Source: a virus. Taken from it: 64,000 nt of DNA. Under the pieces are notes generated by a model. The model saw only the letters and a program-made list of their open reading frames with translations. It searched no databases and was not told where the DNA came from. The translations under genes and the position numbers were made by a program. The DNA lies in IMG/VR virus record IMGVR_UViG_3300017744_000003, positions 1-64,000 of that record; one strand, 5' to 3'. Positions 4,085-61,018 of this stretch are shown here, piece by piece; position 1 is the first letter of the stretch; every line of letters begins with the position of its first letter.

Positions 4085-5048
4085 GAAGAAGTTTAAGCCT
4101 TTAGCGACGACAAGGGGTAGTGGTCTTTTATCGAAGACTCATCGTGTTAAGACTATATCTGGGGGTACCCTTGAGTTAGAAGCGCAACCAGGTAAAGTAC
4201 GTAAGGGCGAACGTAACTACGAGTTAGCAGATGCTAAGAGACGAATATTAAACAGGTTGCCTACCCAAGAGTCTAAGGTAAGGACTCTTATGTTAAAGGG
4301 TATAAGTAGGGCCGAAGCTGCTTATATGCGTTTTGATAAAAGGCGCAACCGTACTACGGGAGAACTTAGAGTTGTTGAAAAGTCTGAGTTAGGTAGGCAA
4401 CTTGAGGGTGTGGTAAGAGATACTATGCGAGATGCCAAAGATCAGATTCTTTCTAACATAGAGGGTTCAGTTAAAACGTATCTTATTGGTCTTCGTAGAT
4501 CTTTAGATGATAAGTCTTTGCTACCTATGTCTACTATAAGAGACATGGCACGTAAGCAGGCTATACAGATCTATAACAAACCTACAGGTAAGGACGGTAT
4601 GAACACTGCTCAAAGACTTGCTACAGCGGGTGGTCGTATGGAGTTAGAACTTCTAAAGCGTATGGACATGGGTATGTTGAAGCGTATAGAAGACCGTAAT
4701 AAGTTAAAGAAGTCTTTAGTAGATCCTAAAGGTTCTAACAAGGCGTGTATATCTAAGACGATTACTCGTATAAATAGAACTGAGCAGAACCGAGCTATGC
4801 ACAAGGCCACCGTAGATACTATGGCATCTATAGGCGTTAATTTATTTTATTGGCGCTTAAGTGCTGCTCATAAAGATTATGGTGGCACAGAAATTTGTGA
4901 AGTTTTGTCTGTTTCTACAGGAGCAGACGTTAATAGTTCATTGCCCTCTGGTTTTAGTAGTTCTACTACAGGTCTATATACTAGTGCTAGTCTACCAGAT
5001 TTGCCACACCCTAACTGCATGTGTAGTATAGAACCTGTATTTGTTTAA
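4077..5048 (+). CDS. Minor head / head morphogenesis protein (SPP1 gp7 / Mu F-like)
   Basis: This 323-aa protein belongs by position and ending to the phage head morphogenesis family: the last 70 residues carry FYWRLSAAHKDYGGTEIC and then DLPHPNCMC, the His-Pro-Asn-Cys ending typical of Mu F / SPP1 gp7 proteins, which are few-copy internal proteins linked to portal incorporation. The N-terminal two thirds are basic and helical. Its start codon is inside the end of the portal gene (8-nt overlap), implying coupled translation. A copy of the dispersed 19-base motif AGTTGTTGAAAAGTCTGAG lies inside it at 4370, giving the peptide VVEKSE. Confidence 0.85.
   Translation: MARKKFKPLATTRGSGLLSKTHRVKTISGGTLELEAQPGKVRKGERNYELADAKRRILNRLPTQESKVRTLMLKGISRAEAAYMRFDKRRNRTTGELRVVEKSELGRQLEGVVRDTMRDAKDQILSNIEGSVKTYLIGLRRSLDDKSLLPMSTIRDMARKQAIQIYNKPTGKDGMNTAQRLATAGGRMELELLKRMDMGMLKRIEDRNKLKKSLVDPKGSNKACISKTITRINRTEQNRAMHKATVDTMASIGVNLFYWRLSAAHKDYGGTEICEVLSVSTGADVNSSLPSGFSSSTTGLYTSASLPDLPHPNCMCSIEPVFV
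4370..4381 (+). repeat. Dispersed 12-mer copy 1 (AGTTGTTGAAAA)
   Basis: First of 12 exact copies of AGTTGTTGAAAA in the window. This copy lies inside the head morphogenesis gene and extends to the 19-mer AGTTGTTGAAAAGTCTGAG, which recurs at 33166 and 39664. The full case is argued in the findings. Confidence 0.85.
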
Positions 5049-8340: not shown

Positions 8341-8774
8341 GGGATAGTGTTGAGCGAGGGGCTAAGAGGGCTTTAGTCCGTAACCACCTAAAGTATGGTG
8401 AAACCGTCCGTCTTATTAAGTATACGCCATCAGCCACTGGAGGCATATATCGTCAGCGTAAACGAATTTACGAGTCTCCCTATGAGTTGCAAGCCAAGGT
8501 AGCGCGACACCCTAACCAGGAACGTATAAGTTCTATAGGTGAGGCTTCAGAGAGAAACGCAGAAATAACGATTCCCGTAAGTTTCTTGAGGGACTTATTT
8601 GGTAGTTCTACCGGTTTATCAGAAACGATTACGACAAGCGATCTTATGGTGTTCGACAATCGTGTTTGGCGTATAGTGCAAGCGTCTTTTACAGGCAGAG
8701 TGGGAGACGATCCATTACTAATGTATATTCTTCTTAGAGAGAAACTAGGCGCTAAGGAGGAAGATTATGAGTAG
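8337..8774 (+). CDS. Putative head closure (stopper) protein
   Basis: This 145-aa protein has a basic N-terminus and beta-rich body (GETVRLIKYTPSATGG; DLMVFDNRVWRIVQASFTG), the size and composition of phage neck stopper proteins that follow the adaptor gene. The VFDNRVWRI segment is the strongest resemblance. It overlaps both neighbours (4 and 8 nt). Assignment rests mainly on gene order: adaptor, stopper, tail completion, terminator, sheath. Confidence 0.55.
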   Translation: MRDSVERGAKRALVRNHLKYGETVRLIKYTPSATGGIYRQRKRIYESPYELQAKVARHPNQERISSIGEASERNAEITIPVSFLRDLFGSSTGLSETITTSDLMVFDNRVWRIVQASFTGRVGDDPLLMYILLREKLGAKEEDYE

Positions 8775-10074: not shown

Positions 10075-11901
10075 ATGGGTTATAACCGCCCAGATGTTTA
10101 CATTGAAGAGATTCTAACTCCCGATACTGCTCCTAGCGGTGTCTCAACAAGTATTGCGGCTTTTGTTGGTGCTGCGCAACGTGGACCAGCTAATACTCCT
10201 ATTTTTATAGATAGTTTTAGTTCGTTTATCCGTATCTTTGGTGCGGCGGTCACTAATGAATCTATGTACTACAGTGTTCGTTCGTTCTTTGAGAACGGCG
10301 GAGCTGCTTGTTACATTGTTCGTGTAGTTGATATTAGCGCTACAGAAGGTGGTGCTCCCGCTGTGATTGCTGCTAACGAGACTATCCCTTCTGCGGCGGG
10401 CGGTGATACACTCAAGTTCTCAGCGGGATATCGAGGTAAGTTTAGTTTCGGTCCCAAGGGGAAAGATCTTAACGTCAAGATTTCTGCCAACGAAAGTTTC
10501 ACCCTAAGCGGTTTAAGCGTTGGTGCGGCAATAGGTGACACTTCCTTAAAACTGACTTCCTCAAATGGTCTTATTGCAGGCGATATTATTAAGGTAGTTG
10601 TTACTGAAGGTGATTTTTACTTAAAGGTAGTAGGTACCAGGACTGTAGTAGAAGCGGGTACTATTGTACGTTATGTAGATCTTGCTTCTCCTATTGAGTC
10701 TGCTTTTACTTCATTAGCCTCGGCGATAACTCTTCTCGCATACGATATTGATGTGATTGAAGACGGAGAGACTCTTGAGTCTTTCTCCCGTTTAACAATG
10801 AACCCCGACTCTGACCAGTACTTTGAGACTGTTATTAACGATGAACAAGTTGGTTCTAGGTTCGTTAAAGTAGAAGACCTCGGACTTGGTCAACTCTTGT
10901 CTAACTCAAAAGAACTAGTAGCCTCGGTTACTTATAGTCTTTCAGATAATGGCGAAGATGAGTTGGCAGGTGTTACGATTGCCGATGATATTCTTGCGGG
11001 TGCTTTACCCTCTCTTGAGGCAAAAAGATCAGTAAACCTTCTATGTGTACCACCTTCACTAAGTGACTCGGGTATCGTTGCGGTTGCTGATATGCCAGTT
11101 CTCCATGCAGGTATGCTTGAGTTCTGTGGTAACCGAATGGACATGTTCGCTATTCTTGACGCTCCAAGAGCACTCACTGCTGACGCTAGCGCATCGGGTA
11201 GTGTTGGTGAGTACCGAAAGAATACTTTGGGCGTGGACACTTATTGGGGAGCACTTTACTTCCCACAGATTCGTGTTCCTTTGAAGTCCGGTAGTACTCA
11301 GTTACTTGATATTCCTCCAAGTGGCGCAGTTGCTGGTCTGTATTCAAGAGTAGATTCTATTCCTGCACCTAGAGGCGGTATTTCTACGGCTCCCGCAGGT
11401 CACGGTGACTTTGGTTCACTTCGTGGCGTGAGCGGTACTTCTCTTGAAGTGAGTGATGCAAAGCATGGTGATCTTAACGTGATTGGTGTTAACTGTATCC
11501 GTGTTGTTGATCGTGCTGAAGGTGCTTTACCAAGCGCACTTGTCTTGGGGTCAAGAACACTTAGCAGTACCCTTGACTTCCGCTACATCAATGTACGTCG
11601 AATGATGACTTTTATCGAGAAGAACGTAAAGTCTATTGGAGAGCAACGACTCTTCCGTAACAATGGCCCACAACTATGGTCAGAGCTTACAGATGAGATT
11701 ACTTCTTTCCTTACGCTCAGGTTTAACTTAGGTGAACTTGCAGGTAATAATCTAAATGAAGCGTTCTTCGTCAAGATTAATTCTGAGACAAACACGGCTG
11801 AAAATATCCGCCAGGGTATCTTGGTGGGTGAGATAGGTATTGCCTTACTTCGCCCTGCGGAATTTGTTATCTTCCGCTTCAGCCAGATTCAATCTAACTA
11901 A
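10075..11901 (+). CDS. Contractile tail sheath protein
   Basis: This 608-aa protein surrounds the tube and contracts to drive infection. The N-terminus (RPDVYIEEILTPDTAPSGV, then TSIAAFVGAAQRGP) and the C-terminus (INVRRMMTFIEKNVKS, then NNLNEAFFVKIN and the ending RPAEFVIFRFSQ) are the most conserved parts of sheath proteins. The middle, about residues 120-300, is a variable beta insertion. Its length is normal to large, and it is followed after 12 nt by the tube gene, as in nearly all contractile systems. Confidence 0.95.
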   Translation: MGYNRPDVYIEEILTPDTAPSGVSTSIAAFVGAAQRGPANTPIFIDSFSSFIRIFGAAVTNESMYYSVRSFFENGGAACYIVRVVDISATEGGAPAVIAANETIPSAAGGDTLKFSAGYRGKFSFGPKGKDLNVKISANESFTLSGLSVGAAIGDTSLKLTSSNGLIAGDIIKVVVTEGDFYLKVVGTRTVVEAGTIVRYVDLASPIESAFTSLASAITLLAYDIDVIEDGETLESFSRLTMNPDSDQYFETVINDEQVGSRFVKVEDLGLGQLLSNSKELVASVTYSLSDNGEDELAGVTIADDILAGALPSLEAKRSVNLLCVPPSLSDSGIVAVADMPVLHAGMLEFCGNRMDMFAILDAPRALTADASASGSVGEYRKNTLGVDTYWGALYFPQIRVPLKSGSTQLLDIPPSGAVAGLYSRVDSIPAPRGGISTAPAGHGDFGSLRGVSGTSLEVSDAKHGDLNVIGVNCIRVVDRAEGALPSALVLGSRTLSSTLDFRYINVRRMMTFIEKNVKSIGEQRLFRNNGPQLWSELTDEITSFLTLRFNLGELAGNNLNEAFFVKINSETNTAENIRQGILVGEIGIALLRPAEFVIFRFSQIQSN

Positions 11902-22131: not shown

Positions 22132-23344
22132 GAATTTTGAGGAGTTTCTAAAAGATTCGCCGGAGGGGTTTGAATATAGTTTCGGTTTAGGTTTAAGCGC
22201 TCAAGATATCTTAGAGAACTTAGGTTTAGACTTTGTTGAAGACGCGCTAGAAGGATTAAGCGCTTTTGTGTCTGCTCTTTCGTTGGTCGTAGACCTAATA
22301 GCCACACTTACTGATATAATCGCTTTATCTTTGGGTGTTGCCATTGATACTTTCCAAGCACTAGCTTTGCTGATAAAGCAGACCTTAGAATCAGTAATAG
22401 ACCTTTTTACAGGTGCTTCAATTAGTCCACTTTTTCACTTCCCTCAAACGTACAAATCTAGGCGTACCCCAAGCGAAGTCCTGTATGATGTGGGCATGGC
22501 ATACTTAGACGAACAGGATAGTAATAGGCCCATAACGGTGAGCGAAAACTTTGGTATTGCGGTTGTAGCCTTGTTTAGTGCGCCTAACTTAGAACAACTT
22601 ATGTTGACGTTTGATAACATCACCAAACAGTTTAAGGGTATTGCTTCTTTTGACGATGGGGGCGATAGTTTTGCAAGTAGGTGGAACAGAGTAGACGAAG
22701 CCTTCCCACGGAAAAAATATCTTGTCAAAGGGACTTCCGGTATGGCTCCCGACTTTAGTTACAAGATTGACTTAACTGAGTTTTTATTTGTAGGGCAAAT
22801 CGTGAGAAGTCTTAATAGCTTAGTCCAGCAAATTGAAAAAGGACGAACTTCACTAGATAAGGTGAGTCAGATTATTGACCTAGCGCAAAGAAGAATTTCA
22901 ACGGTTAATACCTTGGCGAACAAAATATTAACAGCAATCAACTCTTTAGCTGCTTTGCTAGCTCTAGGTGACGCAAACACAGTCTTTGTATGTAGTGGAG
23001 TAGGTAAAGATGAGGATTTTGCGAAGGGAATTATTAATGCACCTCTTCACCCAGAGTACCCAAGGTCTACCTTCATAGAAGAGATAAATACGCAAAGTAA
23101 GAGTAGAGGTCTTCCTAATGTTTTGAACCGAGAAATTGGGGAACAAAGTTTATTTAGCGGCGCGTTATTGCTTCATCTACAAACGCCAAGCCCTTCGTCA
23201 GAAACAGAAGAGGCAAGAAAGATCCTTAGGCTATTAAACTTACTTTATAGCCCACAAGAGACACAAGATTCATTCGATCAAAGAGGAGATAGGCTAACAC
23301 AAACAGGCCGGTCTCTATCTAGGTCTGTACAGGGGGGCAACTAA
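22085..23344 (+). CDS. Baseplate-region protein with hydrophobic helices (unknown)
   Basis: This 419-aa protein is recognisable only as structural-region. Residues about 52-100 are strongly hydrophobic (FVSALSLVVDLIATLTDIIALSLGVAIDTF) and could be two membrane or buried helices. The rest is mixed helix with a charged C-terminus. The ATG overlaps the preceding gene by 47 nt; AAGG lies 7 nt upstream. The conserved place before gp25 and its amphipathic N-terminal region suggest a baseplate or DNA-delivery channel role, not shown by any motif. Confidence 0.65.
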   Translation: MVNKISAQQRGLIRSKNFEEFLKDSPEGFEYSFGLGLSAQDILENLGLDFVEDALEGLSAFVSALSLVVDLIATLTDIIALSLGVAIDTFQALALLIKQTLESVIDLFTGASISPLFHFPQTYKSRRTPSEVLYDVGMAYLDEQDSNRPITVSENFGIAVVALFSAPNLEQLMLTFDNITKQFKGIASFDDGGDSFASRWNRVDEAFPRKKYLVKGTSGMAPDFSYKIDLTEFLFVGQIVRSLNSLVQQIEKGRTSLDKVSQIIDLAQRRISTVNTLANKILTAINSLAALLALGDANTVFVCSGVGKDEDFAKGIINAPLHPEYPRSTFIEEINTQSKSRGLPNVLNREIGEQSLFSGALLLHLQTPSPSSETEEARKILRLLNLLYSPQETQDSFDQRGDRLTQTGRSLSRSVQGGN

Positions 23345-27644: not shown

Positions 27645-30600
27645 ATGGCATCGACACCAAATCTTAGTAATCCGAGCCATGAGTTCGATAAGACAAAGCA
27701 GTATAACAAGGTAGTATTCCAACAGGGTAAGCCTATCCTTGACGTAGATCTTAATGACATGAGTGCTGCGCTACAAGCTCAAGCTAACTCAGCGTTGATT
27801 GAGAAGATGGGGTATGGTCCAAGCCAACTCGATTACCGAGATTGGGCGATGACCGCAGTTAGTTCTGTGACACCTACTTCTGACCGTAACAAGGATAACT
27901 TTGCGGTGACACTTGGTCACCTAGACACTAGAAAGGGCGTATTAGATACTTCTTCTTACAGAAGTGCCGACGCTTTGTCTCCAAGTGTTATATTTGACTA
28001 TGGTAAGATCGTTGATCAAACAGCCACAGACGCTAAGGATAGACCTTATGCGAACTACATTTTAAGGGGTGTTGTTGGGGCAAATTCAACAACTACTAAG
28101 GTGTCTGACCAAGAAAAATCCTTTAACAGTAACCATATTCTTACTGAGTACAACTACCTAGAGGCTATAACGCCTAGTTACTCTAACGTATCGTCTACTT
28201 CTAAGTCAGATGAAACTAGAGCGACTAATAACCATGTCGTTCGTTTGCGAGAGGGCGCTTGTCGCATTAGATTTATAACGGGCAATCTAGCCGGCGAAGA
28301 GCGTGATATTGAAGCTATTGCTTCTACGGTATTGAACTTTGCAAGCAACCCTCTAAATTCTGCGCCAGACGTAGGTAGTGAATACGTTGTATTGCCCCCA
28401 AATACCCTTAGTGCATATCGAAACTTATACAATGCGGCAAATACCCAAGATGCGAGTAAAAGTGAAGGACTTTTAGGACTTCCGAAACTTGTAACTTACA
28501 TACAAACTTTTGAAGAAGATATCTCTTCAACAGAAGATAGCGACATTCAATCAAGTTCACTTGGTTTTGAAACCACACATAGAAGTCAACTTCGTTGGTG
28601 TATACGTGTGGCAATGGTCAACTCTTCTATTGACAATGACCCAGGTTACGCAGGTGTTTCTGCTAGTTTGGGTACTGAACATATCTTTGCTCTTTTGACT
28701 GATAATAAGTTTGTTGACTATCAAGTTTTACTTGATTCAACAGACTCCACAGCTTCTCTCCATAATAGTTATGAGCAATCACTTTTCTGGGCTCAAACGG
28801 ACTCAACAGGTGCAAGGACAGATACTCTTTTAGGCGATCAAGAATCGCCTTTTGGTGACCTTGGGTTAACGCCTTCACACTTCTTTAATGCTAACGAGCA
28901 TAAAGTTGACAACATGTTTTGGTCTTTCCTTAAAGGCTTGTTCTTGAAGGTTCATGGTCAGTTCAACGACTTTGTTATCCTTAATGTATTTAATAGTGAG
29001 AGTAAGTCGAGCGACCCTGCAAATGAAACACTAAGTGAGTACTTCGTACCAGGGGCGCAGACAGACACAACTGCTGCCCCAATCGTTCACGCTTTCTTGT
29101 CAACAGGTAGTGCTTTCCAACGTGTAGCAGGAGATGTTAATGCGGTTCCTGCTTCCTTCAAGTCACCTGCTCGTATCTTCAATACACATGCTGACTTGAG
29201 TGCTGACAACATGAAGAGTCGTACTCTACATGGTCTGCGTGGCGGGATTATTTATGGAACAACCGCCGGAGCACCATTGGTGTTCCCGTCTACTAGTTCA
29301 CACCTAGCATTGGTAGACCAAATGCTCTTAGGTATGAGCGGTCTTGGTTCTGCCCAAGGGTCTACTAAAGCAGGTGAGCGTGTTCCTTCTGCGATTGACT
29401 TCACTCTAGCAAACACTACTGCTTCTTTGGCACAATCAGGTACAGGCGTTGGCGCGATCAAGATGATTAGTCCCATATCCGCTTCTACTATTTCTGCGGG
29501 GAGTACAGGTTCTTTCCTTACAGGATCATCTTCTTATCTTCTCCGAGAAAAGGGTAGTAGAGCTTCGCATACTGTAAATGTTGATGACGCTGACTTAGGT
29601 TGGAGTTTATATAAAGCAGAAGAGGGTAACTTAGTAGATCCTACGACTAATCGTAGTGACCTTACTCTTCGTGGTTGGGAAGAAGGTATGGCGCAAGCCG
29701 CTGCCTTCCAACAAGGTATTAACTTCCGTAAGTTGGCGATTAAGACTACTGCACATAAGAGCATGGACTTATTTACTATTAGTGAATCACCTGCTCAAAT
29801 TAACTCTGATATTGGTGCTGCTAGGAACCAAAAGGCATCGAGTCTTGCTTTCATGATACCTCAAGACCAAGTATCAAATATTAATGGTAACTTATTTATA
29901 GACTCTTACAGTGCTTCCGCTAGAGACTTTATAGGCTTAGGGGACCCCACATTAAACGACAATAACTTTACGGCTCACAATTTTATACCCGCAAATGTTG
30001 ACCGATTTGATGTTAAACCTTTATTGCAAAATGCTTACAAAGGTAATGGGGGTGTAAAGGGTTTTGATGCACTTGCGAACCAAGAACGTGATCTTGCTAG
30101 GAACTATGGACCTTGGAATAGGTTTGACGCAGGGAGTATATCTAGTTCCGATAACTTTACAAGTGATGATGGTGACTTAAGTGTAGTCAATGACTTATGG
30201 AGTAACCGTTGTACTGCTATGCGGTTGCGTTATCATGTAGGTGACTTTTACCCAGGTGAGGTAGATGTAAGAGGTGTACCCCGTAACTTGCTTGTAGACT
30301 CTATGAACTTGTTTATGAAGGTAGAACCTTTGAGTCTAGCGCATTGGATGACTATGCCTAAGCACCAACACTCGATTCTTGAGAACTCGGTGTCTTTTGC
30401 CGAAGGTATTGAAGCTCTACTAAAGGTAGCGCATGGTCTTGGTGATACACAAAAACTAGTTAATGGTTCTGATCAGCCTCTGATCCAAAGTAACTCACCC
30501 GCTTTATCAGAAGGTGGGGATTATCAATCTAGGTCAGTTGGTGATGTAGACCCACTTAACTTACCTTTTGAACACTATAAACAGCCTTTTGTTCATTGGT

Positions 30601-32561: not shown

Positions 32562-32572
32562 GGAGTCTCATT

Positions 32573-32941
32573 ATGGAAGAGATCGCACAGCATATCATTA
32601 AGGAAGTTATCCCCGTACTTGGGGCTATCTTGACAGCTCTAGCTACTTACGGAGTTTCTTTGCTTACTAAGCGTTATAAGATTCAACTCAACGAGGAGCA
32701 CCATATCCTTATGCGCCTGGCAGTACGTAAGGCTATCAGTGGTGCTGAAGAGTGGGCTCACCGTAAAGCTAAGATAGAAGAGCGTTCTGTAAGGGGTGCT
32801 GAGAAGGCTGTTTGGGTACATGCCCGTATTCAAAGTATGTTCCCCAATCTAGCTTCAGACGAACTTGACACGTTAATCGATGAGGAACTTGGCTCTATAA
32901 AGGGAGTCGGTTCAAGCGGTGACAAGGGTCTTGATGTATGA
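32573..32941 (+). CDS. Putative holin (LLH-type)
   Basis: This 122-aa protein has one clear membrane helix at residues about 11-31 (VIPVLGAILTALATYGVSLL), then a charged helical domain (AVRKAISGAEEWAHRKAKI) and a C-terminal 'LASDELDTLIDEE' element. That is the architecture of LLH-family phage holins (N-terminal helix, then aveG/AE..K motif). It follows the big tail protein by 11 nt with AGGAG, and overlaps the next small membrane protein by 4 nt, giving a lysis-like cluster. Confidence 0.65.
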   Translation: MEEIAQHIIKEVIPVLGAILTALATYGVSLLTKRYKIQLNEEHHILMRLAVRKAISGAEEWAHRKAKIEERSVRGAEKAVWVHARIQSMFPNLASDELDTLIDEELGSIKGVGSSGDKGLDV

Positions 32942-33651: not shown

Positions 33652-36600
33652 AAGTTGACGTATATCCAAATATTACAAATGTTGAAGTTTATGAGAATCC
33701 TATCTCTGTACCTGTAGAGGCTACTTGGGAGAAAGTTACATTCTTGGTAGCTAACCCAGTCGTTAATACTTTTGACCTTGGTCGAGAGGTGGCTACAGAC
33801 CGTGACGGTGACTTTGTTCTTCAAGTCTCTCTAAATGGTGTACAAGCAGAATACGGAGACGACTTCACTTTAGAAGGCAGCGTTATTAATTGGGTAAGTC
33901 AACAGATTGCGCTAGAGTCGGACGAAGAACTTGTTATTTGGTATTCCCCCAAAACCATTTATGGTAGCGTCCCTGGTAGTGGCGAAGTATCAAGTCTAAA
34001 CGACCTTAACGATGTTGTGTTAGCGGGTCCACAAGCAGGCCAAGTACTTGTTAGAGACGGTAATGGGGACTTTGCTAATAAGTTCTTAAATGCCGGAGAC
34101 AACGTAACTATTACTTCAAACGCTAACGGCGTAACCATAGCTGCAAACCCTTTGGCGGGTTCAAGTGATGGGGCTCAAGGAGCAATACAAACTTCAGACG
34201 GCAACAATGGATTTACAGCCGTAAATTGGTCAGTAGCTGATAACCATCTTATCCCTAGTTTAGACAGTCAGTACGACATTGGTTCTGCGGCTAATAAAGT
34301 TAGAGACATATATATGAGTGGTAACACTCTTTATATAGGGGACGGTCAGATATCTGTTAATGGAGATGCTATACAGTTTGCACAAGGACTTCAGACTAAG
34401 ACTTTAGCAACGACTGACGATGTTTCTCCCGACACCTTAGTAGCCTCTAGTACATTTGTGTCTGCTGTTACAGGACCACAAGGACCACAAGGATTAGCGG
34501 GTGCTGATGGCTCTATTGGTCCACAAGGGCCACAGGGTCCACAAGGTGCTCAAGGAGACGTTGGTTCACAAGGTCTACAAGGGGTACAAGGAGTCGCAGG
34601 CCCACAGGGTTTAACAGGCCCTTCGGGTGCAGATGGTGCTGACGGTTCAACAGGACCACAAGGGCCACAAGGTATTCAAGGAGTAGCAGGTGCTGTCGGT
34701 CCTCAAGGGTTAGTAGGAGATACAGGAGCAGATGGCGCAGATGGTGCTGTTGGCCCACAAGGGCCACAAGGGTTACAGGGTGTCCAAGGACCACAAGGTC
34801 CTCAAGGAGACACAGGCGCTGACGGTGCGGTTGGTCCACAAGGTGATGTAGGTCCTCAAGGGTCTCAAGGGTCTCAAGGGCCACAAGGTGAGGTAGGGCC
34901 ACAAGGTGATGTTGGACCACAGGGACCGCAAGGTGTTGCAGGACCACAAGGTCCACAGGGACTTCAAGGAGACGCAGGGGCGCAAGGATCTCAAGGATCT
35001 CAAGGTGTTCAAGGTGTTCAAGGTGTAGCTGGTTCCGGTGTAACATTTAAGGGTTCAGTTTCTAGTGATCCAAGTGGTAGTGGTGTGGTTACACTAACAA
35101 ATGCTGCCACATTTACTCCTTCACAAGGAGATGCCGTACTTAGTCAAGTAGATGACTCTTTATTCATCTATGGTGAAACAGATTGGGTTGATGGCGGTTC
35201 TATCCAAGGCCCCCAAGGTATTCAAGGTGTAGCAGGTCCACAAGGACCACAAGGTGCTCAAGGTATCCAGGGTGTGGCAGGATCTGATGGCGCAGATGGC
35301 GCAGATGGTGCTGTTGGCCCACAAGGCCCCCAAGGTATTCAAGGTGTAGCAGGTCCACAAGGACCACAGGGATCTACGGGTGCAGATGGTGCTGATGGTT
35401 CAACAGGACCACAAGGCCCCCAAGGTATTCAAGGGTTACAAGGAGAAGCAGGAGCTACAGGACCACAAGGTGTAGCAGGTGCAGATGGTGCTGATGGTTC
35501 AACAGGACCACAAGGCCCCCAGGGACTTCAAGGAGACGCAGGACCACAAGGACCACAAGGTGTAGCAGGTGCTGACGGCCCTCAAGGACCCACAGGCGCT
35601 AGTGGAACAGCAGGTGCAAGTGTTACAACTCTAGCAATTTCTAATAATACTGTAGCTACAGCGCTTAGTGATGGTACCAATATCAGCGGTTCTGTTGCTA
35701 TGGACCTTACATCTCTTTCTGATGTAGACATTACAGATACTGCGCACACTTTAAGTGACGGCTATGTACTTACTTATGACTCTACACACAGTCATTGGCA
35801 TCCAGAGTCCCCTACAGAGATTACAGCAGGCGCAATAGCTGTGGGGGATTCTTCAGTAACTATTGCTGACACCGGCACTAACGGAAATATTAACTTTACA
35901 ACTGATGGCACTTCTCGTTGGGACGTAACTTCAGCAGGTCACATCATTCCTGCGACTGACGCAGACTATGATATTGGTAACGCTAGCAATAAGGTTAGGC
36001 ACTTATTTCTAAGTGACAATAGCGTTAAACTTGCCAGTGGTGATATTGGTGCAGATGCTGAAGGTGATCTTACCTATACTAAAACAGGTGAAACTGTTTC
36101 TAAGGTAGCAACGCAAACAGGCAACTTACTCACAGTAAAGGGTGACACAACTAGTGCAGCTATAAAGCTAAACTGCGAAGACAATATTCACGGTATTACG
36201 ATTCAATCGCCTGCCAATTCCGAAGGAGCCTCTTATACGCTTACATTGCCTAGCGACACGGGAACTGCTGATCAAGTCCTAAAGACTGATGGCAATGGTG
36301 CTTTAGGTTGGGTTGATCAAGGAGGAGGTGGCGCATCCGTTGATGGTGGGTTCACTCCTATACCGGGGCCTTTGACCGCTAGCCTTTGGAATGGTCGATA
36401 CACTACCTTCGTTATTTACACACCAAATGGCACTACGAATAATATAGTAGCTACTATGCCATCTCAAGGAGAGCATAACGCTTTGTTAAACCCTAACTAC
36501 TCTAGTTATAAGTTTATTTATAGCTTCATGGTAGTTGGTGGCACAAATGTAAGTTACTTACTAGAACTTCCCAGTATAGTAAGAGTATATGGACTGAGTT

Positions 36601-40053: not shown

Positions 40054-40068
40054 GTTCTTAAACAAGTC

Positions 40069-40116
40069 GCTCTTATATATAGTATATAATATAAGATACA
40101 GTATATATATAAGAGC
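40069..40116 (+). promoter_or_regulatory. AT-rich inverted-repeat leader of the replication gene block (copy B)
   Basis: Starts with GTCGCTCTTATATATA (40066). A 13-bp perfect inverted repeat, GCTCTTATATATA (40069-40081) and TATATATAAGAGC (40104-40116), encloses an AT-rich loop. AGGAG directly follows and then the ATG at 40128. It is the most perfect of the three leaders. Confidence 0.65.
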
Positions 40117-40127
40117 AGGAGCTTACG

Positions 40128-40397
40128 ATGTTGGATAAGATGAGTGACGATGAGTTATTGGCTAGGTCTATCGAATACTCAGCAGCGGGTATTAAGGATC
40201 GTTTTGAAGAAGACTATCAGGTAGCCTTAGTATCAGCGACTTCTAGTGTTGATTTGGATATGAGTTCTGATAAAGGTTGTATCATTGTTCACATGAAAGG
40301 TGGAGACGCTTTACCTTATCGAAAAGGCGATTGGGTGCAGGTTAGAGAGGCTAAAGGATCTATGTTTTCAGTAGGTGTGTATAAAAAACATCGATAA
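40128..40397 (+). CDS. Small acidic protein, first gene of the replication block (unknown)
   Basis: This 89-aa protein is acidic at the N-terminus (MSDDELLARSIEYS) with a small beta C-terminal half (GDALPYRKGDWVQVREAKG) that could be an SH3-like barrel. Being first after the leader it may be an early or regulatory product. The stop codon overlaps an iteron-like site CGATAAAATCTAT at 40392. Confidence 0.65.
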   Translation: MLDKMSDDELLARSIEYSAAGIKDRFEEDYQVALVSATSSVDLDMSSDKGCIIVHMKGGDALPYRKGDWVQVREAKGSMFSVGVYKKHR

Positions 40398-40465
40398 AAT
40401 CTATTGACGTTTTAGAGGCAACCGCTTAAGACTTTGTTTATCAAGGCAGATACAAAGGAGATAAC

Positions 40466-40681
40466 ATGGTTCGCCTAGACGGAAAGAAAAACAAGTTGTT
40501 GATCGACTTGAAGCACCCCACCGGTCAGCAACTTGCTGAAATGATTCTACAAGCAGTCTTTCTCTATGGAGCAGAGACAGATCAAGACCGAGCTATCCTG
40601 CGTCAAATGGCACGTATGGTTAAAGGTGAAGAGCCTAAAGCTAATATTGATCTTAAAGACTACTTGAAGGGATCAAAATGA
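40466..40681 (+). CDS. Small protein upstream of replication initiator (unknown)
   Basis: This is a 71-aa, helical, basic N-terminal protein (KKNKLLIDLKHPTGQQLAEMI). AAGGAG lies upstream of the ATG. It overlaps the next gene by 4 nt (ATGA), implying coupling with the replication protein. The 68 nt before it hold nothing beyond the iteron-like site. Confidence 0.65.
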   Translation: MVRLDGKKNKLLIDLKHPTGQQLAEMILQAVFLYGAETDQDRAILRQMARMVKGEEPKANIDLKDYLKGSK

Positions 40682-41538
40682 TTGAGTTCACAAACCTTTC
40701 TCAAGAAGGCTTTATGCCCATCAGTAGAGTGTTTTTAACTAACTACAGAAAGTTAAATATCACGATGGAAGAGGCAATGTTGGTACTTCATTTATTAGAT
40801 CATTCTTGGTTTGGTAATCGTGAATTCCCTAGTGCCGAATACTTTGCAAAGAAGAGTGGTAAGAGTGGACAGACTGTTAGAGCTTACCTTAGATCACTGA
40901 GTCATAAAGGTTATCTAGTCCCCATTCGTACCGAAACCGGAGACAAGACTTATGACTACACACCACTCCTTGGGTCTCTAAAAGACCTGGCGGGTGTTCC
41001 TGTGGCAGAGGAGGAGGTGGTTCAGCCTATACACGACCAAGACAGTAAGGTTGAACCCGACCCCCTAAAGACTTTGATTGACGCTTCTTTAGACATGGCT
41101 AAAGACAAGTCTAAAAAAAGAACTCCAATACAAACAAAACCACAGCATTGGAGAAGGCTTCAAGCCTTTAACGATAAGACTCCGGAGCAGTACAACGCTA
41201 AAGACATTGAGTTTGTTTTAGCTCTTGAGTGGAGAGAGAAGTGGAAGTCACCTCCTCCAAAGTTTTTTGGACGAGACTTGAAACACGCAAAAGACCTAAT
41301 CAGTATCTACTCTCCCGAGGTCGTTACTAGCGTGGTAAAGCAGTGTGTTAAAGAATGGGAAACAATCGCTCCACAGTTCAATATCAAGGGTTATCCTAGT
41401 ATGCCCATATTTTGGGGTTTTCGTAACTCCATATTCCCTTTAATCATAGATGGTGCTCTCCAAACAAAAGCGACTTGGGGTACCCAGTTTGACTCAAACA
41501 CAGATAGCCGCCCAGAAGGTGGTGAGATAGGTTGGTAA
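40678..41538 (+). CDS. Winged-helix replication protein (replisome organiser / DnaD-like candidate)
   Basis: This is a 286-aa protein. Residues about 28-85 form a winged helix (EEAMLVLHLLDHSW; FPSAEYFAKKSGKSGQTVRAYLRSL; KGYLVPIRTETGD). A linker rich in Lys/Glu follows, then a C-terminal helical domain (about 155-275). Winged helix plus C-terminal domain just before a DnaC-like loader and a DnaB-like helicase is the layout of phage replication initiators. It may be the protein that binds the origin or iterons. No DnaD C-terminal YxxxIxxxW motif was confirmed. Confidence 0.65.
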   Translation: MIEFTNLSQEGFMPISRVFLTNYRKLNITMEEAMLVLHLLDHSWFGNREFPSAEYFAKKSGKSGQTVRAYLRSLSHKGYLVPIRTETGDKTYDYTPLLGSLKDLAGVPVAEEEVVQPIHDQDSKVEPDPLKTLIDASLDMAKDKSKKRTPIQTKPQHWRRLQAFNDKTPEQYNAKDIEFVLALEWREKWKSPPPKFFGRDLKHAKDLISIYSPEVVTSVVKQCVKEWETIAPQFNIKGYPSMPIFWGFRNSIFPLIIDGALQTKATWGTQFDSNTDSRPEGGEIGW

Positions 41539-41539
41539 C

Positions 41540-41827
41540 ATGAGCTACACAGACGAACAAAAGATTGGTTCTACTCCTAAAGGCAACTACGATAATCAGT
41601 TAGATCGTTTATATGCCATGAAGATTTCAATAGGATCGCCTCACAGTACGATTTACGTTTATGACGCAGTAAGAGGCGGCAAAAGAGCAACGCTAAGAAG
41701 AGAAAAGGTACATACAAACGACACCGCAAGACAAGCAAGACAGTTAGCCTTAAAGTTTAAGATTCTCCGACAAAGTATTGAGGTACATTATGAGAACGGT
41801 AAACCCAAAACCAAGACAGTTAAGTGA
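41540..41827 (+). CDS. Small basic protein in the replication operon (unknown)
   Basis: This 95-aa basic protein has ATG one base after the previous stop. It looks like a small beta/alpha domain (STIYVYDAVRGGKRATLRREK; DTARQARQLALKFKIL). The 3' end overlaps the loader gene by 38 nt in another frame. Confidence 0.65.
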   Translation: MSYTDEQKIGSTPKGNYDNQLDRLYAMKISIGSPHSTIYVYDAVRGGKRATLRREKVHTNDTARQARQLALKFKILRQSIEVHYENGKPKTKTVK

Positions 41828-42413
41828 AGAAACGCTACAGCGTATGAACATTGGTCGGCGCTTTTGGAGCGCTGATATGACTCAAGTAGATGAGTCAACG
41901 TCAAAGGCTATCTTTAGGCGTTATGTTATGGAACTAAAGTCAAACTACGATCAAGGCTGGGGCATCTTCTTGTACGGCGGTAATGGTGTTGGTAAGACCC
42001 ATGCTTCTTGCGCTATGTTAAAAGAGATACAGAAGAGAGGTTATTCCACTTACTGTGTATTAGCTGACGTTCTTAAAGTGGCGTACATTGATGGGCAGCG
42101 GTTTGATCAAGACAACTCTGTAGTACAGAGAGTAGAATCAGTAGACTTCCTTCTGTTAGAAGATCTCGGTAAAGAATATTCCGGTAAGGGCAGTGGGTTC
42201 GCTGAACTCTGTTTTGAGAATATGCTGCGTAAACGCTCTAGGGAGTGCTTACCTACGATTGTGACTACCAACCTATCTCCTAATGCTTTTAAGGAGCGTT
42301 ACAAGCAATCTGCGGCTTCCTTAGCTATGGAGTGTATGGTTGCGTGTGAGATGAAGGGTGAAGATCGCAGAAGAGGGCTTGGGAGCATTAAGACCCAGGA
42401 GATGCTTAAATGA
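41790..42413 (+). CDS. DnaC/IstB-like AAA+ helicase loader
   Basis: This 207-aa AAA+ protein loads the replicative helicase on DNA. Walker A LYGGNGVGKTHA at about residues 62-73, Walker B FLLLEDLG at about 120-127, sensor 1 'PTIVTTNLSP' at about 152-161. I chose the ATG at 41790 with GAGG 6 nt upstream over an upstream TTG at 41778. It overlaps both neighbours. Confidence 0.9.
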   Translation: MRTVNPKPRQLSEETLQRMNIGRRFWSADMTQVDESTSKAIFRRYVMELKSNYDQGWGIFLYGGNGVGKTHASCAMLKEIQKRGYSTYCVLADVLKVAYIDGQRFDQDNSVVQRVESVDFLLLEDLGKEYSGKGSGFAELCFENMLRKRSRECLPTIVTTNLSPNAFKERYKQSAASLAMECMVACEMKGEDRRRGLGSIKTQEMLK

Positions 42414-42763: not shown

Positions 42764-43990
42764 ATGGACATTGAAAAAAAGATAATAGACAAGTGCGCTG
42801 AGAGCCCAATCCTCTACGCAGAAGCCATAGACCAAGCGGTCATTCCCGAGATGTTTAGCGGTCAGTCTAAAGACATTTGGGAATACGCTATAAAACACAT
42901 GAAAGCACATGGTAGTGGACCTACCGACGAAGCAATTACTGTACAGTTCCCTGAGTACGTTTGGGACTTCCCTGCTTCAGAACCTTTATCTTACTATGTT
43001 GAGCAGTTGAAGCGTAAACATGCTTTCAACTTAACCTTGGTAGGTATTCAGAGTGCTTACGATAATCTTAACAAGCGTGAAGTGGAATCCGCTGTTGATG
43101 ATCTAAGAGACGCACTAAGGAAGATAGAGGACGCTACAGCAAGCGAAGCAGACCTCGATTGGGGAACTACAGCAGAAGATCGTTATAACGATTATCTTGA
43201 TATACAGAATAAAGGTGGAATTGATGGGTATAGAACACCTTTTGATACCTTAGACCAGGCTACCCAGGGTTGGCATGATGGTGAGTTTATCCTTGTTGTA
43301 GCACGACAGGGTGTGGGTAAGACTTGGTTGACCAACATCATGGCGCATAAGAACTACAAAGACGGTTTGAAAGTTCTTTATTTCACCAAAGAGATGCCTA
43401 GTAAGCAGGTTGCTAGACGTTTTGATGCTCTTGAGTACGAACTGCCCTACCAAGATCTTCGCTCAGGTCAGTTAAACTCTTTCAAAGAAGCAGAATGGAG
43501 GCAGAAGGTACAAGAAGGTTTACCAAAGGGGCAGCTTGTTATTGTGGGTGAGGAAACCGGAGGTGTGTCACAAGTTGCTGCAAAGATAGAAAGACATAAG
43601 CCCGACATTATCTTTATTGACGGTATGTATCTTATGGACGACGACCAAAGAGCTAGAGATAACTGGCTTAAGATCAGTAATATCAGTCGTGATATGAAGA
43701 GACTGAGCAAGAGAGTTATGATCCCTATAATCGCTACTGTTCAGTTTAATAGGAGCGCAGACAATTCAAAGGGTGACGCAAGCAATATTGCCTATGGTGA
43801 TATAGCTAAAGACGCTGATATTATCTTAGGATTGTTTCAAGACGAAGACCAAAGACTTGATAAGCGTATGACCTTACGTGTGTTAAAACAGCGTGAAGGC
43901 GCAAGACCTGAGATCGAACTTGATTGGGACATGGCCAACATGAAGTTCAATGAGGTTCAAGATAGTAGTGTGGGTACGGTGAACTTCTGA
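42764..43990 (+). CDS. Replicative DNA helicase (DnaB-like)
   Basis: This 408-aa hexameric helicase has an N-terminal DnaB-like helical domain (residues 1-110) and a RecA-fold ATPase: Walker A VARQGVGKTWL at about 179-189, Walker B DIIFIDGMYLM at about 281-291, and IIATVQFNRS (sensor) near 324-333. Shorter than bacterial DnaB (about 470 aa) but normal for phages. The stop overlaps the primase start, supporting a coupled helicase-primase unit. Confidence 0.93.
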   Translation: MDIEKKIIDKCAESPILYAEAIDQAVIPEMFSGQSKDIWEYAIKHMKAHGSGPTDEAITVQFPEYVWDFPASEPLSYYVEQLKRKHAFNLTLVGIQSAYDNLNKREVESAVDDLRDALRKIEDATASEADLDWGTTAEDRYNDYLDIQNKGGIDGYRTPFDTLDQATQGWHDGEFILVVARQGVGKTWLTNIMAHKNYKDGLKVLYFTKEMPSKQVARRFDALEYELPYQDLRSGQLNSFKEAEWRQKVQEGLPKGQLVIVGEETGGVSQVAAKIERHKPDIIFIDGMYLMDDDQRARDNWLKISNISRDMKRLSKRVMIPIIATVQFNRSADNSKGDASNIAYGDIAKDADIILGLFQDEDQRLDKRMTLRVLKQREGARPEIELDWDMANMKFNEVQDSSVGTVNF

Positions 43991-51323: not shown

Positions 51324-51708
51324 TCTAGGTGGAAAACGACCACGGCCTAATGCTTTTGACGACACTACTCCTAAGTGTAACAAGAGTAGGTCTGTTGTAC
51401 ATGAAGACCGATTGCAAGGTGTATTGAGGAGCAAAGCGACACCTAACAGTGGTGCTTTACCCGAAATCAGTTACAAAGGTGATCTGCAAGATGGTCTATT
51501 TGTTTGGCAGGCTAAACTAACTGATAAAGATCGTTTTACGATTACGTCAGATGTGCTAGTAGAATTAAAGAGACAAGCGTCTCTAAACTCAAAGTGGCCA
51601 GGTGTCGCTTTAACCTTGGAAGGGTTACCTAGTCATATGGAGAAAGATTGGGTTATGTTACCCGCCAGTGTATTCGGTGAACTTATTGACGAATACACTA
51701 AACACTAA
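51310..51708 (+). CDS. Nuclease-like protein (PD-(D/E)xK / Holliday junction resolvase-like candidate)
   Basis: This is a 132-aa protein. The core SGALPEISYKGDLQDG then FVWQAKLT resembles phage resolvase-like PD-(D/E)xK nucleases, where a Gly-Asp is followed by Glu-x-Lys. Here the Glu position is Gln (WQAK), which could impair metal binding. C-terminal WVMLPASVFGELI also fits that family. It overlaps the end of recA, so it belongs to the recombination set. Activity is uncertain. Confidence 0.55.
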   Translation: MKTPSLGGKRPRPNAFDDTTPKCNKSRSVVHEDRLQGVLRSKATPNSGALPEISYKGDLQDGLFVWQAKLTDKDRFTITSDVLVELKRQASLNSKWPGVALTLEGLPSHMEKDWVMLPASVFGELIDEYTKH

Positions 51709-51714
51709 CTTTAC

Positions 51715-51726
51715 TTTTCAACAACT
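51715..51726 (-). repeat. Dispersed 12-mer copy 8, just upstream of the ParB-like gene
   Basis: Reverse-strand copy in the 31-nt gap, ending 13 nt before the ATG of the ParB-like gene and touching its AAGGAA binding site. Confidence 0.88.
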
Positions 51727-51739
51727 TAAGGAAAAAGAC

Positions 51740-52645
51740 ATGGAAATCAAAAACATAAATATTGAAGACATTGACTATAGTTACATTGAAAACTGCCGTA
51801 CCTCTATAGAGGTTGAAGACCTTCGTGAGTCTATTGAAGCCACCGGTCTACAGACACCTATTGGTGTTGTTTTACAGGGTGAAGGTAAGTTTGGTTTGGT
51901 TTATGGTTTTCGTAGACTAAACGCTTGTTCTAGTTTGGGTTGGATTACTATACCTGCAAGTATTGTTTCAGCAGACAACCAAGCAGACTTGTTGGTCATG
52001 AACTTACAAGAGAACGTCAGTAGGCAGAGTTTAACTCCAATGGAAGAGGCTTATGCGATCAAACGGATTATGGACGCAGGTAAAGACGTTGATGAGTTTA
52101 GGGCAGCACTGGGTTGGTCTAAAACACTAATCACACAAAGACTTGGGCTTTTAGACTTAAGTCTTGAGATTCAAGAAGCACTTGAAGAGGATAAGATCTC
52201 CGTCAACCAGGCAAGAGCTATCGACGAAGCAGAGCATGAGCACCACGGGTCTTTGATTGTATTAGCGGAAGAAGGGACTACTGTTAAGGCTCTAAAAGAA
52301 GAGATTGAACAACTCAACCGAGTTGTTGGTCCCGACGATGAAGTGACTCTAGTCCTCGATGAGGATAATGATTTATTGCTAGATGAAGAAGAGGATTATG
52401 ATTCTTCCAAAGAAGACGCTAAGGCTTTAGCGGAGGCTAACTCCAACTTGGTAAAAGCTACTTTGTTGGACTGTGGTGCAAAGGTGCTTACAGGAGATTC
52501 TTCTTGGTGGGCTTACCAAGTTGCTATTTCAAGTATCGACTTTAGTCGATTACCCTCCGGAGAGTTAGCTGCTCTTGTAAATGCCATACAAAACCTTGCG
52601 GGGGATCATGGTCTTGACGCTTGGGGCGAAGGTTCTAAGAGATGA
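51740..52645 (+). CDS. ParB-like DNA-binding protein
   Basis: This 301-aa protein has a ParB N-terminal domain (residues about 10-110: RESIEATGLQTPIGVV, the LVYGFRRLNACSSLG motif equivalent to G-E-R-R, and NLQENVSRQSLTP) and the central HTH (about 118-140: AALGWSKTLITQRLGLLDLS). The C-terminal 120 residues are acidic and unlike ParB dimerisation domains. No parA is seen. The family includes CTP-dependent clamps for DNA segregation, transcription factors and nucleases; I see no nuclease-specific change. AAGGAA precedes the ATG. A copy of the dispersed motif abuts the start, compatible with autoregulation. Confidence 0.88.
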   Translation: MEIKNINIEDIDYSYIENCRTSIEVEDLRESIEATGLQTPIGVVLQGEGKFGLVYGFRRLNACSSLGWITIPASIVSADNQADLLVMNLQENVSRQSLTPMEEAYAIKRIMDAGKDVDEFRAALGWSKTLITQRLGLLDLSLEIQEALEEDKISVNQARAIDEAEHEHHGSLIVLAEEGTTVKALKEEIEQLNRVVGPDDEVTLVLDEDNDLLLDEEEDYDSSKEDAKALAEANSNLVKATLLDCGAKVLTGDSSWWAYQVAISSIDFSRLPSGELAALVNAIQNLAGDHGLDAWGEGSKR

Positions 52646-54961: not shown

Positions 54962-54997
54962 CATAATGTAATACTTTAAACAGGAGGTTACATTATG
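54962..54997 (+). promoter_or_regulatory. Perfect 10-bp hairpin enclosing the ribosome binding site and start codon
   Basis: CATAATGTAA (54962-54971) is the exact reverse complement of TTACATTATG (54988-54997), whose last three bases are the ATG of the next gene. The 16-nt loop holds the strong AGGAGG (54982-54987). In mRNA this stem would bury the start codon and present the binding site in a loop, suggesting translational control or a protein-binding operator. Confidence 0.6.
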
Positions 54998-55375
54998 GCT
55001 AAGAAATACAATGATCAATGGTTCGTTCCGCCAAAAGGTGTCCAAAAGGCAGCAGAGCGGGGTCTAAAAGATCGTAAGAAGTACGGTCGCGGTGGCTTAA
55101 CAAACAAGCAAGCCTCAGAACAAGGTATTGGTTCTGGGGTGCAACGTGCGGTTAATCTGAAGAATGGTAACAAGGTATCGCCTCAAACCATTAAGCGTAT
55201 GAAGAGCTTCTTTGCTAGGCATGAGAAGAACAAAAACTCTCGCAAACCTAATGGAGAACCTGGTGCCGGTAAAATCGCTTGGGACTTGTGGGGGGGTGAC
55301 GCAGGTAAAAGGTGGGCTGAGTCTACTGCTAAAAAAATGGAACGCGCAGACGAGTTGGATAAAAAAAGACGTTAA
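54995..55375 (+). CDS. Basic phage protein with IAW-x2-WGGDAG motif (unknown)
   Basis: This is a 126-aa Lys/Arg-rich protein with KYGRGGLTNKQASEQGIGSG near residue 30-50 and IAWDLWGGDAGKRWAEST at the end. This pair of motifs recurs in uncharacterised phage proteins from memory. DNA binding is likely from charge. AGGAGG precedes the ATG, inside the loop of a perfect hairpin. It is the last gene before the iteron array. Confidence 0.75.
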   Translation: MAKKYNDQWFVPPKGVQKAAERGLKDRKKYGRGGLTNKQASEQGIGSGVQRAVNLKNGNKVSPQTIKRMKSFFARHEKNKNSRKPNGEPGAGKIAWDLWGGDAGKRWAESTAKKMERADELDKKRR

Positions 55376-55491
55376 AATCTATCGATAAAATCTATCGATA
55401 AAATCTATCGTAAAAAAGTACGGTAAAATCTATCGATAAAATCCCGATGAAAGAGTGTGTTTGTATAAAATCTATCGATAGATTTTATACA
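55373..55491 (+). repeat. Iteron array and 30-bp perfect palindrome (origin or operator candidate)
   Basis: TAAAATCTATCG occurs at 55373, 55386 and 55399 with exact 13-bp spacing, again at 55424, degenerates at 55437, and forms the arm of a 30-bp perfect palindrome at 55462-55491 (left half TGTATAAAATCTATC). An AT-rich run follows directly. Tandem iterons plus palindrome plus AT-rich tract is typical of replication origins or repressor operators. The repeats begin 2 nt before the stop of the upstream gene and lie just before leader C. Confidence 0.8.
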
Positions 55492-55493
55492 TC

Positions 55494-55522
55494 GCTCTTA
55501 TATATATATATATAACTAAGAG
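55494..55522 (+). promoter_or_regulatory. AT-rich leader of the nucleotide-metabolism block (copy C)
   Basis: CGCTCTTATATATATA followed by TAAGAG at 55517-55522 repeats the start of leaders A and B, with a shorter 6-bp inverted repeat. It is joined directly to the palindrome on its left; the first gene starts 22 nt later with only a weak binding site. Confidence 0.5.
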
Positions 55523-55543
55523 ATACTATATAAGTGAGATGAG

Positions 55544-56926
55544 ATGAGAGTCTGTTTAAGTGGAGTTGTTAGAGAAGAGCGCCTAGATAAAATATTGGAA
55601 GCTAAGGTTAGGAGTGTTGTTTTAGATTACTCGGTTGTTAAAGATCTCAGCCTAGATTGGTTTGAAGATAACCGTGACCAGTTTGATTGTATTATGTTGG
55701 AGTACGATCTAACTGGTGCGTGGTCTAGGATGAAGTACCTTTGGGGAGGCGAAACAGATCGTGTTCTCAGAGCTATAGAAAAGCATGGTAGTTTGTCAAA
55801 TGCGAAAGAACACCTTCTTTCTAAGCTAGATCAACGAGTGACTAGTTATCTAAGTTTCTGTAATAATATTGAAGGCTTGATTGATGTTATTTGGCTTCCT
55901 TTCCTACCTAATATGGGTTGTTCTAGGTGGGAAAAGTTGTTGAAAAGTACCAAGATAGGTTACACCTTATGGTCTTTCAACGAGATCGATACTATTATTC
56001 ATAACTATTCTTACGTAGGTATACCGAGTTCGTTTGATACCGAAGTCGTGAAGGTTGAAATGAAGCCTTATATTGCCTCTCTAAAGTCGTTTGGTATTAA
56101 AACGCATAGGTGGGGTAGGGTAGACAAGGAAACGCTCCTTACGGGCTTATTCTGGAGTGCTTCAAGTTCTAACTGGTTAAGTGGTTCTAAATACGGAGTC
56201 ACTTTTGAATACGTAGGAAACCTAAAACTTGTTACACATCATGGGTCTAAAGGCTCAGGTAAGTCAGTAAGAAACAAGCTCAAGTCTAAATGTGAAACTT
56301 TATCCCTTGACCATTGTCTATTGATGAGCGATGACCGTAGGACTGTTGACCTGTGGAATCTCTCTCAGTGGGAAGCCTACTCAACAGAAGCAAACCGAGT
56401 AGGTGGTTACTGGACAAAGAGGGAGGCAGCAGTGAGTAAAGATCAGTTACCTGTAGTTAACAATCAGACAGAATCAAGCCTTGCAACTTCTAGTCAGTTT
56501 GGTTCATACTTACGGACTTGTAATTCATGTTACCTCAGTGCAAATTGCCCTGCATTTGAGCCCGACAATAACTGTAGAATATCGACAACCCCCAAGGTGG
56601 ACACGCCCGAAGACGTTCAGCAACTTATCAACAAAGTTATTCAGATACAGGGTGAGAGAGTCTTGTTCGCTTCTATGTCCGAAAGGATTCAGAACGCAGG
56701 ACTCAACCCCGAGGTATCTTCTGAGATGGAGACTTTGACGAAGTTAATGAAGGACGCCAGGGAAATTGCTTCGCCTATAGGTGAGGACGAGGTTTTAATA
56801 AAAGCTAAGGGATCTGGAGTGATCTCGCGTTTATTCGGCGGTTATGGAAGATCGGGTGGAGGTTCTAAACCATCTACGTCAGAGAGAATCATAGATATCT
56901 CTCCTATGGAGTCAGAAGATGACTAA
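55544..56926 (+). CDS. TIM-barrel-like protein with C-terminal Cys cluster (possible tRNA-guanine transglycosylase-like / DpdA-like)
   Basis: This is a 460-aa protein. Residues 1-290 alternate strands and helices with a GIPSSF motif (about 164-169) and GIKTHRWGRVDKETL followed by the SSSNWLSGSKYG segment, reminiscent of TGT/DpdA-like phage enzymes that put 7-deazaguanine in DNA; this is a tentative reading. No queuosine-pathway genes are in the window. Residues about 325-350 have C-x2-C-x5-C-x7-C (CNSCYLSANCPAF...C), and the C-terminus ends IKAKGSGVISRLFGG, a module I recall in separate phage proteins. It may thus be a fusion. It overlaps RNR by 8 nt. Confidence 0.6.
   Translation: MRVCLSGVVREERLDKILEAKVRSVVLDYSVVKDLSLDWFEDNRDQFDCIMLEYDLTGAWSRMKYLWGGETDRVLRAIEKHGSLSNAKEHLLSKLDQRVTSYLSFCNNIEGLIDVIWLPFLPNMGCSRWEKLLKSTKIGYTLWSFNEIDTIIHNYSYVGIPSSFDTEVVKVEMKPYIASLKSFGIKTHRWGRVDKETLLTGLFWSASSSNWLSGSKYGVTFEYVGNLKLVTHHGSKGSGKSVRNKLKSKCETLSLDHCLLMSDDRRTVDLWNLSQWEAYSTEANRVGGYWTKREAAVSKDQLPVVNNQTESSLATSSQFGSYLRTCNSCYLSANCPAFEPDNNCRISTTPKVDTPEDVQQLINKVIQIQGERVLFASMSERIQNAGLNPEVSSEMETLTKLMKDAREIASPIGEDEVLIKAKGSGVISRLFGGYGRSGGGSKPSTSERIIDISPMESEDD
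55935..55946 (+). repeat. Dispersed 12-mer copy 9, inside a coding region (Leu-Leu-Lys frame)
   Basis: Here the motif is read as E K L L K S, a different frame from copies 1, 5 and 6. The flank continues GTACC. Confidence 0.85.
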
Positions 56927-60970: not shown

Positions 60971-60988
60971 TCTTATTTCTGCTAAAAT

Positions 60989-61010
60989 CTCTCGTACCAA
61001 ATAACGAGAG
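60989..61010 (+). promoter_or_regulatory. Hairpin in front of phoH
   Basis: CTCTCGT (60989-60995) pairs with ACGAGAG (61004-61010) across an 8-nt loop, and the ribosome binding site GAGAGGGG merges with the right arm 8 nt before the ATG. The left side TAAAATCTCTCG also matches the 55.4-kb iteron at 11 of 12 bases. Confidence 0.45.
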
Positions 61011-61018
61011 GGGATTAT

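Follow-up and report, generated by a model that had tools for sequence, protein, structure and literature searches.

The window analysed here, positions 1 to 64,000 of the IMG/VR virus record IMGVR_UViG_3300017744_000003, is a 64,000-nucleotide part of a 73-kb virus contig that carries a tailed phage gene set including terminase and portal. The replication set is full and consists of DnaD-like, DnaC-like and DnaB-like proteins, a primase, a DNA polymerase, a UvsX-like recombinase, ribonucleotide reductase, ThyX and PhoH. A repeat array with a palindrome is situated between two open reading frames of the + strand. Upstream is a gene for a 126 aa phage protein (phrog_2859, 54995–55375). Downstream is a TGT/DpdA-like gene (55544–56926), where the similarity is confined to the C-terminal part; it stands first, ahead of ribonucleotide reductase, exonuclease, ThyX and PhoH. 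No close cultured relative of this phage lineage was found. A near-identity search of phage records showed no match, nor did a tblastn search with the DnaD-like protein, and bacterial genomes scanned with the upstream gene gave no relative. S-CBS4 and DC31 contain a homologue of the upstream gene, but it sits near head and packaging genes and these phages are thus uninformative for the array.

Exact copies of the sequence TAAAATCTATCG begin at positions 55373, 55386, 55399 and 55424, and both arms of a palindrome at 55462–55491 contain it as well, the unit at 55479 in reverse orientation. The palindrome (TGTATAAAATCTATC/GATAGATTTTATACA) is 30 bp long and perfect. All of these positions, as well as the palindrome, agree with a preliminary description made from the letters of the DNA. 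The same description gave the spacing as exact, but the intervals are 13, 13, 25 and 42 bp and thus unequal. It also gave the region as non-coding, which holds for most of it, since it is largely intergenic, but not for the first three bases of the first repeat, which are the stop codon of the upstream open reading frame. Degenerate units in the same register are found at 55360, inside the end of that open reading frame, and at 55411. The run of 13- and 12-bp units extends over 55360–55449 (+ strand), beginning inside the 3′ end of ORF 54995–55375, and reads TAAAAAAAGACGT, TAAAATCTATCGA twice, TAAAATCTATCG, TAAAAAAGTACGG, TAAAATCTATCGA and TAAAATCCCGATG.

Both the repeats and the palindrome are genuine features, well beyond chance expectation. 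The longest perfect palindrome in each of 20 Markov-simulated genomes was 12–20 bp, compared with 30 bp here. A 22-bp site pattern is matched seven times in the window, compared with 0.01 times in shuffled sequences, a count that measures rarity only and is not an independent test, because the pattern was written from these same sites.

Two syntenic viral contigs, IMGVR_UViG_3300028388_002189 (G001) and IMGVR_UViG_3300020455_000008 (G002), have the array in the intergenic gap that holds it in the present genome (G000), with 62–70% protein identity at the adjacent gene. Conservation in relatives, the main check proposed in the preliminary description, is thus seen in the two closest genomes. 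What is conserved in all three consists of three near-palindromic sites, TAAAANNNATC|GATNNNTTTTA, centred on ATC|GAT. In the present genome these are O1 (55386–55407, centre 55396.5), O2 (55424–55445, centre 55434.5) and O3, the perfect palindrome (55462–55491, centre 55476.5); none is assigned a strand. The distance between the centres of O1 and O2 is 38 bp in each of the three genomes, and that between O2 and O3 is 42 bp here and 41 bp in both relatives. An extra strong unit, O0 (55373–55394, likewise unstranded), is found 13 bp before O1 and is weaker in the relatives. The 13-bp register, which is common to the three genomes, is occupied by weaker units in either the forward (TAAAATCTATCGA) or the reverse (TAGATTTTATCGA) orientation, and the orientation interchanges between relatives; TAAAAAACATCGA is a recurrent variant half-site. 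A scan of viral contigs for the exact tandem 13-mers gave no match, and a scan for the exact palindrome gave only these two relatives. The exact tandem 13-mers are mainly the version of a conserved site array that is displayed by this genome.

A transcript of 55373–55491 folds better than shuffled sequences (z −4.9). Palindrome and repeats could act as RNA in a read-through transcript, as a terminator, a processing signal or a translation signal. However, such a fold follows from the near-palindromic form of the repeats, a terminator-like stem with a T-run is absent, and an Rfam search of the window gave no RNA family match. The interchange of direct and inverted units between relatives is also easier to reconcile with DNA binding than with a fixed RNA fold, and a role as RNA is highly improbable.

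Two more distant genomes (G004 and G005) contain the same flanking genes with only about 32 bp between them, and display neither the array nor the AT-rich element described below at this locus. In two further contigs (L055 and L056) the upstream gene is present and no array follows it. In the genomes seen, array and AT-rich element are either both present or both absent.

The AT-rich element, TCGCTCTTATATA...TATATAAG, occupies 55491–55543 (+ strand), in the stretch that separates O3 from the start codon of ORF 55544. An AT run with a leader after the palindrome had been described previously, and both are indeed found, at 55496–55515. The element is, however, not peculiar to the array. The same AT-rich inverted repeat recurs in this genome at 17–66 and 40066–40117, and G001 and G002 also have three copies each, at the same three operon starts. 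It lies close behind O3 in all three genomes, and no array is found alongside the other two operon starts (17 and 40066). Of its three copies here, two fold as hairpins. The presence of the element at three operon starts per genome ties it to transcription units and not to the array; it is promoter- or leader-like, a candidate phage promoter or leader. An AT-rich unwinding element specific to an origin is thus not what is found here; an AT run beside repeats, by itself, is no evidence for an origin.

Outside the array there is a single other copy of the site in the genome, TAAAAAACATCGATAAAATCTA, at 40382–40403 (no strand assigned), which overlaps the stop codon of ORF 40128–40397. In all three array-bearing genomes the site is restricted to two loci, both of which precede operons, and the reversed motif, used as a control, has no match in these genomes. 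The second copy is identical in G001 (32572–32593), slightly changed in G002 (22282–22303), and still recognisable in the more distant G003 (8730–8751) and G005 (35941–35962); in G004 it has drifted far from the consensus. Part of the site codes for the last codons of ORF 40128–40397, which may explain some of the conservation in G000–G003. Directly adjoining it is the hexamer TTGACG (40404–40409, + strand), a putative −35 element judged by its sequence, and TTGAC[GA] directly follows the second site in six of six genomes. A sigma-70 scan showed no standard promoter at either the array or the second locus. We infer a promoter at the second site from position and conservation, since no standard −10 is evident and the promoter scan gave no match there.

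The genes that follow, all on the + strand, begin with one for a 71 aa protein (40466–40681), for which a beta-beta-alpha-alpha model was obtained with no confident match in the PDB. Next are a DnaD-like winged-helix protein (40678–41538), which is a candidate initiator, a DnaC-like helicase loader (41778–42413) and a DnaB-like replicative helicase (42764–43990). The winged-helix assignment of the protein at 40678 was made earlier and is borne out: it is DnaD-like by domain, PDB sequence and fold matches, the fold match coming from a low-confidence model. In G004 and G005 the sequence upstream of the replication operon contains, once per contig, an inverted repeat of alternating purines and pyrimidines, CTCACGTACGTG...CACGTACGTGAG, with an AT-rich core (G004 28601–28790, L045; G005 35531–35670, L048), a candidate origin or promoter.

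These genes bring to mind a replication origin of the SPP1/lambda type, in which the DnaD-like protein would bind the array, the AT run would melt and the DnaC-like protein would place the DnaB-like helicase. SPP1 has two origins about 12–13 kb apart, with direct repeats and an AT-rich region, both of which are bound by gp38 (PMC6316719; PMC3485210). As in SPP1 oriL/oriR, genes for initiator, loader and DnaB-like helicase stand in a row and in the SPP1 order, and two distant loci, here 15 kb apart, have repeats in common, of which one locus is close to the initiator gene while the other lies in a non-coding gap. Direct repeats adjoin an AT-rich tract in both systems, and a search of the initiator gene itself found no iterons inside it. 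The copy at 40.39 kb could then be a site of autoregulation or the second of two origins, as oriL and oriR are in SPP1. However, the second locus lacks an AT-rich melting tract and consists of a single site at a −35-like hexamer, not of an iteron cluster inside the initiator gene as in SPP1. Also in contrast to SPP1, two other operon starts have the AT run without an array. Distant relatives with the same replication genes carry no array at this place. A GC-skew inflection near 55.4 kb had been proposed as a check, and none is present: cumulative GC skew rises smoothly, neither GC nor third-position skew changes sign at the array in this genome, and no sign change is consistent in the three genomes. 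This is weak evidence against an origin, because skew in phages follows the coding strand. An origin at the array is the main rival of the operator reading given below, possible but less probable, and it could coexist with an operator because replication initiators can control their own genes.

Plasmid-like origins had also been suggested as a likeness. The iteron period of such origins is about 17–22 bp, while that of the array is 13 bp and the orientation of its units flips between relatives. Iteron plasmid origins of the RepA/RepE/pi type (PMC4980987) resemble the present arrangement in combining tandem direct repeats with an inverted form of the same half-site, and in having a further site close to the initiator gene promoter. 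On the other hand, no Rep-type protein is seen here, the candidate initiator being DnaD-like, and the perfect palindrome is beside the array instead of at the initiator promoter.

Three candidate DNA-binding proteins are encoded: the DnaD-like protein (40678), a ParB/Noc-like protein (51668–52645, + strand) and ORF 49407. The last of these shows a weak match to a transcriptional-regulator family and, by eye, a helix-turn-helix-like stretch. No clear covariation links any regulator to the site, and the sequence does not single out any of the three. The DnaD-like initiator is the leading candidate for the protein that binds the array.

The ParB/Noc-like protein is an alternative candidate binder. 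It has HTH_ParB and ParB_N domains, its nearest solved relatives are Noc and Spo0J, and its gene is situated 3 kb away from the array. The sites could serve for clamp loading or for long-range repression without ParA, as in KorB or Noc. A palindrome with a central CG is shared with parS, NBS and OB (PMC7383237), the sites of ParB, Noc and KorB. Sites similar to parS/NBS occur in the window at chance level, and the recognition helix of the protein has diverged (GWSK versus GKSR/Q), which would be consistent with another target. However, the array differs from parS, NBS and OB in sequence as well as in length, and tandem 13-bp units are unlike isolated 16-bp palindromes. G004 and G005, in which this locus has no array, also encode the ParB/Noc-like protein, and no ParA match (PF13614) was found in five genomes, whose contigs may be incomplete. 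A dispersed 14-bp motif, described next, is a competing candidate target of the protein. Overall, a ParB-type site is improbable.

The dispersed motif, AGTTGTTGAAAAST, has 13 copies in the window versus 0.13 expected, at positions 4370, 8180, 12452, 21799, 27240, 33166, 39664, 44961, 51713, 55935, 58366, 61194 and 61890. With a 12-bp core and one mismatch allowed, 18 are found on the contig; there are 21 in G001, many of them at matching gene positions, and 16–17 in G004 and G005. Genes and intergenic regions both contain copies, at intervals of roughly 4 kb; most are on the minus strand at 8–27 kb and on the plus strand at 33–71 kb. These are possibly sites of the ParB/Noc-like protein or are stoperator-like.

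The region had been described as either an origin or a multi-site operator. Of the two, the operator is favoured, the origin being weakened by the skew, by the recurrence of the AT element and by the absence of the array in two distant relatives. The explanation that appears best is a multi-site operator at which a phage DNA-binding protein would act, the same protein also controlling the replication operon, and we place its probability at roughly one half. Near-palindromic sites stand at more than one operon start and are conserved in relatives, as is expected of such an operator, the promoters being assigned by position. The same is suggested by the position of the second site, directly next to the −35-like hexamer of the replication operon, and by the presence of the AT run at other operon starts. 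G004 and G005 lack array, gap and AT element together, which fits a single unit made up of array and promoter.

We infer that a phage-encoded and probably dimeric protein would recognise the near-palindromic site of approximately 22 bp, several copies of which are directly upstream of the promoter-like AT element; the three strong ones are spaced by about four helical turns. The array would then control the operon of the TGT-like protein, ribonucleotide reductase, exonuclease, ThyX and PhoH, with cooperative occupancy setting its output. At the copy abutting the −35-like hexamer, occupancy may repress or gate the DnaD/DnaC/DnaB operon, and replication and precursor supply could thereby be tuned together. 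Lambda OL/OR is a multi-operator phage control region of this type. There too, three near-palindromic sites at fixed spacing precede an operon and a related site is found at the replication operon; unlike lambda, the present phage has a tandem 13-bp register and shows no sign of lysogeny, as no tyrosine integrase match was obtained. With four to seven units over approximately 130 bp, the array is larger than most operators require and would also suit the loading of an initiator. The sigma-70 scan, which gave no standard promoter at either locus, and the far drift of the second site in G004 count against the operator as well.

Operator and origin could also be joined in one protein. The DnaD-like initiator would then use one type of site, with interchangeable half-sites in a 13-bp register, both to start replication at the remote array and to control its own and the nucleotide operons. 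This is unlikely; if true, an uncultured phage lineage would possess an initiator-regulator circuit. A precise and conserved cis-element here links replication and nucleotide-metabolism genes in a lineage for which no close cultured relative was found, and the candidate proteins are few.

Two smaller repeats are found elsewhere. Before PhoH, 60983–61012 carries TAAAATCTCTCGTACCAAATAACGAGAG, a small inverted repeat, and TAAAATCTCTCGTA is also found at 10876 in G001 and 43909 in G002. The half-site at 60983 is part of this small inverted repeat and matches only by half, and it was not counted among the sites. In contig L007, C-rich unit repeats, CATAAAAAATACCAACCCCC...GGGGTGGGGGTGAGC, occupy the last 120 bases at the right contig end.
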